Below are positions 1-3,898 of a stretch of DNA of 64,000 bases, in pieces (the first letter of the stretch is position 1; each line of letters opens with the position of its first letter). The translations under genes were made by a program, and so were the position numbers. The DNA is taken from positions 1 through 64,000 of the forward strand of contig NZ_JAAMOW010000006.1 of the NCBI RefSeq assembly GCF_011067135.1. The letters are read 5' to 3'. The notes beneath the pieces are model-generated. The model ran no database searches and was not told the DNA's origin. It saw nothing but the letters and a program-made list of their open reading frames with translations. The stretch comes from Solimonas terrae. GTDB taxonomy: Bacteria > Pseudomonadota > Gammaproteobacteria > Nevskiales > Nevskiaceae.

Positions 1-688
1 CACGCCCCGAGATCGAGAACACGTCTTCGATCGGCAGCAGGAACGGCTTGTCGGTCTCGCGCGGCGGTTCCGGAATCCAGGTGTCGATCGCGTTGTACAG
101 CTCTTCGAGCTTGGCAACCCATTCGGCTTCGCCGGCGATGGCCTTGGTGGCCGAGCCGCGGATCACCGGGGTGTTGTCGCCGTCGAAGTTGTACTTGGTC
201 AGCAGGTCGCGCACTTCCATCTCGACCAGGTCCAGCAGTTCGGCGTCTTCGACCAGATCGCACTTGTTCAGCCACACCACGATCTTCGGAACGTTGACCT
301 GCTTGGCCAGCAGAACGTGCTCGCGCGTCTGCGGCATCGGGCCGTCCACCGCCGACACCACCAGGATCGCGCCGTCCATCTGCGCGGCGCCCGTGATCAT
401 GTTCTTCACGAAGTCGGCGTGCCCAGGGCAGTCAACGTGCGCGTAGTGGCGGTTGTCGGTTTCGTACTCGACGTGCGAGGTCGCGATCGTCAGGATCTTC
501 GTCGCGTCGCGACGGCCCTGGCTTTCCGACGCCTTGGCAACCTGATCGTACGGAACGTAGTTCGTGCCGTACTTGTCCGCCGACACCTTCGTCAGCGCCG
601 CCGTCGTCGTCGTCTTGCCGTGGTCAACGTGGCCAATCGTGCCCACGTTCACGTGCGGCTTCGTGCGTTCAAACTTACCCTTTGCCAT
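1..688 (-). CDS. tuf: Elongation factor Tu (partial, 3' end outside window)
   Basis: EF-Tu is the GTPase that delivers aminoacyl-tRNA to the ribosomal A site. The minus-strand translation starts [20 protein letters not shown] and carries the G1 P-loop GHVDHGKT at about residues 19-26, then DCPGH (G3) and NKCD (G4). About 229 of roughly 395 residues are visible and the gene runs off the left edge. It is the last gene of a tRNA-Tyr/Gly/Thr-tuf transcription unit, the arrangement of E. coli tufB, so it is probably the tufB copy. The family assignment is certain; only the copy name is inferred. Confidence 0.98.
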
Positions 689-781
689 CGCGAAGTCTCC
701 GTCTTGCTCAAATCACGTTGAAACTTAGGGCCCGACCACGGCCTCGAAAAAACACTCAGGCGCCGGGCGCGGCGCCTTGTC

Positions 782-857
782 TGGTGCCCACCACAGGAAT
801 CGAACCTGCGACCTCACCCTTACCAAGGGTGTGCTCTACCGACTGAGCTAGGTGGGC
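782..857 (-). tRNA. tRNA-Thr (GGT)
   Basis: The reverse complement folds into a full cloverleaf: acceptor GCCCACC/GGTGGGC, anticodon stem CACCC/GGGTG around loop TTGGTAA, anticodon GGT, T-loop TTCGATT and an encoded CCA. It reads ACC and ACT threonine codons. It sits about 95 nt upstream of tuf in the same transcription unit, the position of thrT in the E. coli tufB operon. Confidence 0.97.
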
Positions 858-964
858 GAAACTTTTTCAACAACCGCTACTGCGAATTCCGGTGCCCTCC
901 GGCCCTCGCGCAAGCGCTCAGGCGTTCGGCTCGTGCAAAGCTTCGCTTCGCGCACAACACTCGC

Positions 965-1036
965 CTCACCCGCAGGAATCGAACCTGCGACCTCACCCTT
1001 GCCAAGGGTGTGCTCTACCGACCGAGCCAGGTGGGC
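965..1036 (-). pseudogene. Degenerate tRNA-Thr copy with GGC anticodon, no CCA
   Basis: This is a near copy of the tRNA-Thr at 782-857. The 5' acceptor strand (GCCCACC), D arm, anticodon stem CACCC/GGGTG and T arm are kept, and seven bases upstream of the 5' end are also shared. The anticodon loop is TTGGCAA, so the anticodon is GGC (alanine codon GCC) instead of GGT. The 3' acceptor strand no longer matches: read directly it gives GGGTGAG, pairing at three of seven positions, and it pairs better only if two single-base insertions are allowed. No CCA is encoded. AlaRS would need a G3:U70 pair, which is absent. It is best read as a decayed tandem duplicate; a functional RNA with another role cannot be excluded. 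Confidence 0.7.
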
Positions 1037-1053
1037 GAAACGTCTCGGTCGTC

Positions 1054-1127
1054 TGGAGCGGGTGAAGGGAATCGAACCCTCGTCAGTAGCTTGGAAGGCT
1101 ACAGCTCTACCATTGAGCTACACCCGC
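1054..1127 (-). tRNA. tRNA-Gly (TCC)
   Basis: Reverse complement gives acceptor GCGGGTG/CACCCGC, anticodon stem GTAGC/GCTAC with loop CTTCCAA (anticodon TCC), T-loop TTCGATT and encoded CCA. It reads GGA and GGG glycine codons. It occupies the glyT position of the tRNA-tufB operon, between tRNA-Tyr and the threonine copies. Confidence 0.97.
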
Positions 1128-1154
1128 CTTGACCCACGACATCGACAGAGATTT

Positions 1155-1240
<86 letters not shown>

Positions 1241-1274
1241 GCCACGGCCTCACCGGACCACGGGTCCGGAAAGG

Positions 1275-1310
1275 GCCGCGTATTCTCGTCGCCGAACTGC
1301 GCCCCGTCAA
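1275..1310 (-). promoter_or_regulatory. Sigma70-type promoter of the tRNA-tuf operon
   Basis: Read on the minus strand, TTGACG (1305-1310) is followed by a 17-nt spacer and GAGAAT (1282-1287), then a GC-rich discriminator ACGCGGCCC. The near-consensus -35, ideal spacing and GC-rich start region fit stable-RNA promoters, which are usually repressed by ppGpp/DksA. It lies about 40 nt upstream of tRNA-Tyr. The rest of 1311-1489 shows no gene. Confidence 0.65.
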
Positions 1311-1489
1311 GAAGCTTGAGGCGATGATTTTGATGCTGCGCGTACTTGCAGCGGGCGCGCACCGCAATTGAGCCGATATTCCTCTTGCACGGGTGGAAAA
1401 ATCGCGTTCTGCTACGGATGTGCGTCCTCCCGGGCGCCGACGTGAAATCTCAAAGAATCGCCCAAGGCGATCGTTCGGGGGAATGACCA

Positions 1490-3898
1490 ATGCTGAATCC
1501 TGCACTGCGGCGCACAGCCGCCTTTTCGCTGCTGTGCGTCGCGACACTGTTGATGGCCGCCTGCGGCAGCTCGTCGTCGTCGAGCAAGCTCTCGGCTGGG
1601 GACTCCGCGCCGCCGCCCGAACAGGATTCGATCGACAACGAGCTCGGCACCTCGATGCTGACCGCCGGACGCTGCGATCCGCTCGATCCGCAGTACTGCC
1701 TGTTTCCCTGGCCCAACGACTATTTCTCGGTCGACGACTCCAGCTCCGATACTGGCAAACGGCTCGATCTGAAGCTGCTGTCGATGCCGAAGAACGTGCT
1801 GGCCAAGCCGATCACGCCGACCGAGTGGAACCGCAACGACGGCTTCTCGCCCGGCCAGCTGATTCTGGCGCGCGTTCCGGGGCTGGATCTGAAGCAAACC
1901 GGCGCGGTGCCGATCACCGATCTTGCAGATACCTACCGCAAGGATCAGCCGATCATCGTCATCGATGCCGACACTCTGGAGCGGCACCTGATCTGGGCCG
2001 AACTCGACGCCAACATCACCAAGTTCACCATCTGTGACAGCCCCAAGCCGGTCGAAGCGCTGACCAGCCTGCTCAGTGCCGACCAGCTCAACGGACTGCT
2101 GAGCGCGATCACCACGGTCTGCTCCGCCTTGCCTGTGCCGGACAACCCGCTCGCCGACCCTGGTCCGGCGCTGATGATCCGTGCCGGCAAGAACTACGAG
2201 GAAGGCCATCGCTACATCGTCGCGCTGCGCAATTTGAAGAATGCCGAGGGCGAGACGCTGGAGGCGCCGGCCGCCTTCCGCGTATTCCGTGACAACCACC
2301 GCAGCGATCAGGACGCCCTGAACGCGCGGCGGCCGCACATGGAGCAGCTGTTCGCGACGCTCGGGAAAGCCGGAATCGCCCGCGACTCGCTGTACCTGGC
2401 TTGGGATTTCACGGTCGCCAGCGAACGCAATCTCAGCGAACGCGCACTGCATATCCGCGACGATGCGTTCGCCAAACTCGGGGATGCGGCACCGACCTAC
2501 ACCATCGACTCCGTCACCGACCACACCGCCGCGGAGGACGCGGACATTGCCCGCGAGGTGACCGGCACGCTGACGATCCCGTCGTACATGACACTGCCGA
2601 ACGGGCGCAGCGGCTCGCGTTTCTACTACGGGTCGGACAACAGCCTCGACGCCCTGCCGCAGGTCAACCCGCACAATTCGACGATGACTGCCCCGTTCAC
2701 CTGCATGATCCCGCGCGCAGCGTTCGCCGACGCCGACAGCGCGGCAAACGCGACGCAGGCGGTGCCGGCCAGACCGTCTCTTTACGGCCATGGCCTGCTC
2801 GGCAGCCATGACGAAGTCGGTGCCGGCAATGTCCGCGACATGGCGCAGGAGCACAACATGACGTTCTGCGCAGTTGACTGGATCGGCATGGCCTCGGACG
2901 ATATCCTCAACGTCGCCGAAGATCTGCTCGACATGTCGCACTTCCCGACGCTGCCGGATCGCGGCCAGCAAGGTTTCCTGAACTTCATGTATCTCGGCCG
3001 CCTGATGATCACCGCCGACGGCCTGTGCGGAAATGCCGCCTTCCGGGTCGGTGGCAAATGCGTCATCGATCGCAGCGAGCTCTACTACGACGGCAACTCG
3101 CAGGGCGGCATCATGGGCGGCTCGCTGGTCGCACTGTCGCCGGACATCCGCGCCGGCGCGCTCGGGGTGCCCGGCATGAATTACTCGACCTTGCTGCAGC
3201 GCAGCGTCGATTTCGACACCTACGCGGCCTTCCTCTACGCCTCGTACCAGAACTCGCTCGACCAGGCGATGGTGCTGTCGCTGATCCAGATGCTGTGGGA
3301 TCGCTCCGAAGCCGACGGCTACGCCGCGCATCTGCGCGCTGACAATCCGCTGCCGAACACACCGGCCAAGCGGGTCCTGATGCACGTTGCCTTCGGCGAT
3401 CATCAGGTCAGCATGTGGACGGCGGAAGTCGAGGCACGGACGATCGGTGCGCGAATGCACTGCCCGGCGGTGGTCGGCGGCCCCGATCCGCAGCGCGGCA
3501 ACAAGGTGCAGACCGGTGTCAACGCTGCGGTGGCTGCCGAGATGGCGGCATATCCGGCGCTGAGCTTCGGCCGGCGCCACCCGGACGACGAGCCGTACTA
3601 CGGCATCCCCTGTCTCGGCAGCGGCGCCAACAGCGGTTCCGGCCTGGTGATCTGGGACAGCGGTCCGCTCGTGCACGCGGACGGCTCGCCGTCCGACACC
3701 GGTGTCGCGCCGCCGCCGATCGACAATCGACCGCCGCGCCCGGAGCTCGGCTACGGCGCCGATCCACACAGTTTCCCGCGCTCGACCGCCGAGGCGCGCG
3801 CGCAGAAGTCGGAATTCCTCAAGCCGCAGGGCAAGATCGTCGACACCTGCGGCGGAAGGCCCTGCGCGACACGGGACTTCGACACCTCGCCGCCGTAA
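1490..3898 (+). CDS. Large outer-membrane lipoprotein with alpha/beta-hydrolase signature
   Basis: An 802-residue lipoprotein. Basic N-terminus, hydrophobic core and lipobox LMAAC give lipidated Cys25 with Gly26, so outer-membrane sorting is expected. A polyserine linker follows. The nucleophile-elbow-like GNSQGG puts a candidate catalytic serine at residue 537, and a later GDHQ (Asp637-His638) could supply the acid and histidine. This resembles large extracytoplasmic lipases and esterases of marine gammaproteobacteria, but the exact family was not identified. The ATG has GGGGGA seven bases upstream. It is monocistronic, with a hairpin after the stop. Substrate unknown; lipid or ester hydrolysis is an inference. 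Confidence 0.7.
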   Translation: MLNPALRRTAAFSLLCVATLLMAACGSSSSSSKLSAGDSAPPPEQDSIDNELGTSMLTAGRCDPLDPQYCLFPWPNDYFSVDDSSSDTGKRLDLKLLSMPKNVLAKPITPTEWNRNDGFSPGQLILARVPGLDLKQTGAVPITDLADTYRKDQPIIVIDADTLERHLIWAELDANITKFTICDSPKPVEALTSLLSADQLNGLLSAITTVCSALPVPDNPLADPGPALMIRAGKNYEEGHRYIVALRNLKNAEGETLEAPAAFRVFRDNHRSDQDALNARRPHMEQLFATLGKAGIARDSLYLAWDFTVASERNLSERALHIRDDAFAKLGDAAPTYTIDSVTDHTAAEDADIAREVTGTLTIPSYMTLPNGRSGSRFYYGSDNSLDALPQVNPHNSTMTAPFTCMIPRAAFADADSAANATQAVPARPSLYGHGLLGSHDEVGAGNVRDMAQEHNMTFCAVDWIGMASDDILNVAEDLLDMSHFPTLPDRGQQGFLNFMYLGRLMITADGLCGNAAFRVGGKCVIDRSELYYDGNSQGGIMGGSLVALSPDIRAGALGVPGMNYSTLLQRSVDFDTYAAFLYASYQNSLDQAMVLSLIQMLWDRSEADGYAAHLRADNPLPNTPAKRVLMHVAFGDHQVSMWTAEVEARTIGARMHCPAVVGGPDPQRGNKVQTGVNAAVAAEMAAYPALSFGRRHPDDEPYYGIPCLGSGANSGSGLVIWDSGPLVHADGSPSDTGVAPPPIDNRPPRPELGYGADPHSFPRSTAEARAQKSEFLKPQGKIVDTCGGRPCATRDFDTSPP

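Follow-up and report, generated by a model that had tools for sequence, protein, structure and literature searches.

A probable tRNA-Thr-like pseudogene with a probably tail-derived 3' end in the tRNA-tuf locus of Solimonas terrae

The tRNA-tuf locus and its second tRNA-Thr body

The window, that is the whole stretch of 64,000 nucleotides of Solimonas terrae DNA that was analysed, begins with a tRNA-tuf locus encoded on the minus strand. Genes for tRNA-Tyr (GTA; 1155..1240) and tRNA-Gly (TCC; 1054..1127), both identified with ARAGORN and the Rfam tRNA model, are followed by a tRNA-Thr-like copy (963..1036, with nt 1 at 1036), the intact tRNA-Thr (GGT; 782..857), likewise identified by both methods, and the 5' part of tuf (1..688, read by eye), which is cut by the contig start. 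A sigma-70-like promoter match is located upstream of tRNA-Tyr (1282-1310, minus strand; one found against 0.1 expected), and a terminator-like hairpin with a T run occurs between tRNA-Thr and tuf (758-777, minus strand), where one found against 0.8 expected in shuffles lies within chance.

Over its first 66 bases the copy (1036-963) shares 62 with the intact tRNA-Thr(GGT) (857-782) and departs from it by A9G, A14G, U36C and U65C, and a BLAST search with the intact gene as query retrieved it at 94% over nt 1-67 (E=1.7e-23). The earlier note's description of a tRNA-Thr duplicate is thus borne out, while the extent it gave, 965-1036, stops short of the end at 963. U36C changes the anticodon from GGU to GGC (1001..1003, from ARAGORN and the alignment), as had also been read, and ARAGORN reports a tRNA at 963-1035 (minus strand) under the name tRNA-Ala. 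With the Rfam tRNA model the copy scores 46.6 bits (967-1036), above the gathering score of 29 and below the 71.6 bits of the intact tRNA-Thr, which makes it the lowest-scoring of the 46 Rfam tRNA matches in the genome. Beyond the T-arm (972..988 in the copy) the sequence reads GGUGGGC-ACCA in the intact gene and G-GGUG-A-GGC-GAGU in the copy. The acceptor 3' strand of the latter, GGTGAGGC (963..970), contains one extra A, and its GGUG-A-GGC is predicted to pair with GCC-CACC around one bulged A; no CCA follows it. None of the substitutions opens a stem in the predicted fold, all stems are pairable, and the result is a full cloverleaf of -34.7 kcal/mol, compared to -35.2 kcal/mol for the intact gene. 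The cloverleaf expected of a functional tRNA is thus found by ARAGORN, by the Rfam score and in a fold with a single bulge, and the complete predicted cloverleaf makes the claim of a broken acceptor strand too strong. The absence of an encoded CCA and of a G3:U70 pair, both previously proposed, hold, position 3 of the copy being a C.

Positions 9 and 14 take part in the tRNA core through their adenosines, threonyl-tRNA synthetase reads the anticodon and alanyl-tRNA synthetase needs G3:U70. Positions 9, 14, 36 and 65 are constant in the tRNA-Thr of all ten congeners, and all four are changed in the copy. Across the order, A9 is constant in 73 of the 73 tRNA-Thr genes and A14 in 68 of the 73, while the copy has G at both, these conserved core positions not being kept. 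The tRNA-Thr genes of the ten congeners differ from that of the window only in the T-stem (49-51 and 63-64) and the acceptor stem (6, 7 and 66), mostly by matched pair changes. Changes at otherwise constant sites make the copy look like a pseudogene, and it seems to be a tRNA-Thr duplicate that has lost the constraint of translation. More generally, the T-stem of tRNA-Thr(GGT) evolves fast, chiefly through matched pair changes, the greater part of the gene being constant in the genus (e.g. L002-L008, L014, L018 and L024).

The anticodon GGC and the predicted cloverleaf would also suit a working tRNA for alanine codons, charged with alanine or threonine. The missing CCA, the acceptor bulge, the lack of G3:U70, the replacement of A14 and A9 and the intact tRNA-Ala(GGC) encoded elsewhere in the genome (L050) make this extremely improbable, and a functional alanine tRNA was rejected on the missing G3:U70 pair and the intact tRNA-Ala. 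The tRNA-Thr set of the genome comprises the GGT, CGT and TGT anticodons.

Among 30 loci scanned with ARAGORN a second tRNA-Thr-like gene was found only at that of the window, and only there does an unbroken, near-full second body lie upstream of tRNA-Thr among 73 loci, showing that the duplicate is not kept in relatives. A retained tRNA-like RNA, or a structured spacer that influences how the tRNA-tuf transcript is processed or expressed, could account for pairable stems and a fold nearly as stable as that of a real tRNA. Such a role is quite improbable given that the copy occurs in one of the 11 genomes of the genus and one of the 73 loci of the order, and that the insert folds no better than shuffles (z -1.1 to +1.1 in six stretches), on which a strong fold of the insert was also rejected. 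Broken tRNA-Thr bodies between tRNA-Gly and tRNA-Thr were observed in two further genomes, namely a body with an inserted GC palindrome (G067, L307) and a body cut off after 19 bases, beyond which GC hairpins lie (G011, L112); together with that of the window they represent three different forms. The best reading of the copy is a lineage-specific pseudogene.

Origin of the 3' end of the copy

The 3' flank of the copy was used as a query against 11 genomes of the genus. A second place was found in one congener (G001), with 91% identity over 43 nt (E=1.2e-9; window 930-888), situated downstream of its single intact tRNA-Thr and behind a partial copy of the tRNA 3' half. The repeat in G001 consists of an inverted and a direct copy of its host tRNA's own 3' half, and the flank follows the direct copy. 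In the full alignment the tail-derived flank of the window extends over 871..970, with the T-arm (972..988), which is repeated in the G001 tail, followed by GGGTGAGGCG, a variable part, CCGAACGCCyGAGCGC..GCGCGAGGGCCGGA and GGGCACC, and extending a little beyond it. The best conserved block of the tail core lies at 898..929, and the displaced tRNA-like end GGGCACC (GGGCACCG, 890..897, placed by its sequence and by its neighbours at 898-929 and 871-889) is found about 65 nt beyond the copy's tail-derived end. The stretch behind the T-arm scored 91 against the G001 tail, the maximum of 300 shuffles being 53.5. A similar insert in a genome of another family (G042) scored 56.5 against a shuffle maximum of 58.5, which is not significant, and G001 is the only relative in which the flank is clearly present.

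If tRNA-Thr had simply been duplicated in tandem, and the 3' end and anticodon of the copy had then decayed by ordinary mutation, the near identity of the two bodies would be explained, and the altered acceptor strand can be derived by two one-base insertions. The same odd acceptor strand and the sequence following it are, however, found behind the partial tRNA-Thr copy in G001, which renders this history rather unlikely. The match of this 3' portion to the flanking sequence of the G001 direct copy indicates that it was probably acquired by exchange with a tail and not by point mutations. The decay proposed in the earlier note is accordingly retained for the changed constant sites, which are pseudogene-like, but not for a gradual erosion of the acceptor strand. 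A new observation is that the unusual 3' end of the copy, together with some 100 nt following it, can be aligned to a repeat downstream of tRNA-Thr in a congener.

No good match to the insert was found elsewhere in the window's genome (next best E=0.063), and an interspersed mobile repeat was rejected on these grounds. The contig starts inside tuf, about 1 kb away, so that an assembly error near the contig end might be suspected; the copy differs from its original at four positions, the sequence following it has no other genomic copy, and the genome is 99.67% complete and 0.58% contaminated, making such an error highly improbable. Like bacterial tRNA pseudogenes, the copy has a near-identical body, lacks CCA and is changed at otherwise constant sites. 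It differs from them in that its 3' end appears to be tail-derived, and in that its locus gave rise to other partial copies in relatives.

Tails behind tRNA genes in the order

Tails were surveyed at 76 tRNA-Thr loci of 75 genomes, of which 71 could be tested, two had too little sequence and three had no tRNA-Thr(GGT) call. With thresholds of 27 for direct and 24 for inverted copies, set after the scores had been seen and with mononucleotide shuffles as reference, 20 of the 71 loci have tails in which the 3' half of the host tRNA recurs twice, once inverted and once direct, and two more have an inverted copy only. The inverted copy starts 20-56 nt after the CCA and, in 17 of the 20 tails, the direct copy ends 98-139 nt downstream of it. 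The inverted score of G042 is 25, under its own shuffle maximum of 26, and the region of G045 was limited to 100 nt, its direct copy being seen separately. Among the ten congeners only G001 and G006 have tails. An exact pattern found two tandem tail units in each of two genomes, and a looser exact pattern matched seven of the 85 genomes of the order, compared to 0/85 for the reversed control. Partial self-copies beside tRNA-Thr are therefore common in the order, and the notion of an otherwise conserved operon does not apply at this spot. In tRNA-Gly spacers such copies occur at none of 69 loci, a weak control because the spacers between tRNA-Gly and tRNA-Thr are short, and in tRNA-Tyr spacers at five of 56; the upstream copy of G067 was left out of the spacer count because its tRNA-Gly was not called.

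A strict tRNA-Thr tail pattern matched none of 369 sampled genomes of the class, among which are only four of this order, all tail-free; as the pattern had no positive, this says little on the absence of tails in the class. Scanning the genome contigs with a sequence pattern gave at least 119 stretches, of which 80 (L120-L199) were analysed, L141 containing no pair. Among these 80, 89 pairs represent intact tandem tRNA genes and two are partial copies, one of them behind the tRNA-Thr of Hydrocarboniphaga. One genome of the survey (G029) is Hydrocarboniphaga sp. RYN_594, its locus (L026) being contained letter for letter in the named contig; it belongs to the same family as the genome of the window, and NCBI places Hydrocarboniphaga in the Nevskiaceae. 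In the open-licence literature no report of tRNA-Thr/tuf tails was found.

The tails follow their host tRNA. When ten T-stem types were compared, the best fit of the inverted copy was to its own host in all 22 cases, and that of the direct copy in 19 of them; the exceptions are G001, where starting the search 70 nt downstream caused the direct copy to be overlooked, and G038 and G048, which did not match. Within one genus (g9), G061 differs from G018 and G029 in its T-stem, and the copies in its tail show corresponding differences. Copies that track their host this closely fit conversion or template switching. A study on RNA hairpins (PMC8794818) reports inverted copies that follow changes in their partner, a likeness to template-switch (quasipalindrome) mutation. 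The tails differ from it in that the tRNA gene, the inverted copy and the direct copy change together, by a mechanism that is deduced.

A comparable plan is known from RtT (Rfam RF00391, rttR), the repeat behind tyrT/tyrV of E. coli, which contains an inverted copy of the host T-arm, forms hairpins, carries a direct copy of the host tRNA's last bases with CCA and may be tandem. RtT elements behind several tRNAs of E. coli are already in print (PMC4986893). The tRNA-Thr tails and the window's insert differ from RtT in having no match to RF00391. In most tRNA-Thr tails the antisense is fuller, taking in the T-loop, and the direct copy is longer, and the copy in the window starts with an entire tRNA body, with no clear inverted copy to be seen in this stretch. 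The RtT model gave no match at E<=10 in window 850-1050 or at E<=1 in 1-3000, none in the window's genome (G000) with filters that lose weak matches, and none in the tail at the 17 tRNA-Thr tail loci examined out of 22, where RtT matches lie only behind tRNA-Tyr. The tRNA-Thr tails are similar in plan to RtT, and membership of RF00391 was rejected for want of a covariance-model match in these searches. The window's intact tRNA-Thr has neither a direct nor an inverted copy behind it, and behind the pseudogene only the short displaced GGGCACC was seen.

RtT itself was detected in 19 of the 85 genomes of the order at E<=0.001, and above the cut-off in 11. Of 20 such places examined, 17 follow a gene for tRNA-Gln, tRNA-Arg (three anticodons) or tRNA-Ser (three anticodons) and repeat the 3' end of that same tRNA; the other three are at contig edges where no tRNA is shown. 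RtT elements with their own host's 3' end occur behind Gln, Arg, Ser and Tyr tRNA genes (L254-L273, L248, L251 and L103), and the motif GGCCCGAAGGGYGAGG recurs in many of them. A possible worn RtT-like tail, with a 22-nt inverted match and a weak direct match to the 3' part of the tRNA, lies behind tRNA-Ser(GGA) of the window's genome (L032, minus strand), a score of 48 near this gene having come from a neighbouring tRNA-Ser on the other strand.

The tails may also be considered as folding switches between tRNA-Thr and tuf, a model-based proposal that is very doubtful. In one state a normal tRNA would stand beside a tail hairpin, and in the other the antisense would take the T-half out of the tRNA while the spare 3' half would close the acceptor stem, the inverted copy acting as near-complete antisense of the T-half and the direct copy as the spare 3' half. 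In all 20 tails the predicted pairing of the antisense is stronger with the T-half of the tRNA than with the direct copy, by a margin of 6.6 to 17 kcal/mol that is partly due to the greater length of the tRNA piece used. In 18 of the 20, the minimum free energy structure of the tRNA with its tail no longer contains the tRNA's own fold; these figures reflect thermodynamics only, and during transcription the tRNA can fold first. Among five predicted structures, the spare 3' half closes the acceptor stem in G006, G025, G029 and G081 and the cloverleaf is kept in G001, with the T-half held by the antisense in G025, G029 and G081 and by other tail bases in G006. Strong antisense pairing follows from copying alone. 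Were the switch true, the window's pseudogene would be a genetic relic of such a half-swap.

Proposed history and significance of the copy

The preferred reading, with a probability of roughly 0.7, is that the copy is a chimeric tRNA-Thr pseudogene, in which a tandem duplicate was joined to a tail by exchange at the T-arm, and whose transcript would be trimmed and degraded. The alignment with G001 is observed, and the order of events is a reconstruction. The tRNA-Thr unit would have been duplicated in tandem, after which the T-arm of the upstream copy may have recombined with its counterpart in a tail, or slipped against it, with loss of the normal 3' end. With tails behind tRNA-Thr in 20 of the 71 loci, direct repeats of the T-arm spaced by about 100 nt are a frequent feature here. 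The product would consist of a tRNA body (nt 1-65) and a tail-derived end with a bulged acceptor strand, no CCA and the displaced GGGCACC. No longer needed, the copy would then have acquired A9G, A14G and the anticodon change U36C. It may be transcribed within a Tyr-Gly-Thr-tuf precursor and perhaps cut by RNase P, as general tRNA processing suggests, and the transcript would not be usefully charged, would be trimmed and degraded, and would serve at most as a spacer. Against the chimera, the window's own tRNA-Thr is now without a tail, and the copy still folds as a cloverleaf near the real gene's energy, as a decayed gene need not; the intermediate, a tRNA, a tail and a tRNA in a row, was seen in none of the genomes examined.

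The pseudogene itself probably has little effect on the cell. For annotation, it is a pseudogene that ARAGORN names tRNA-Ala, and it suggests that exchange with a tRNA-derived tail can produce a tRNA that seems to be decaying. The genes for tRNA-Thr, tRNA-Tyr and other tRNAs in the order are accompanied by copies of their own 3' ends in both orientations, raising the question of whether such tails act on tRNA-tuf transcripts, and the tracking of T-stem changes by the tRNA-Thr tails offers a case in which the concerted evolution of tRNA genes can be tested.
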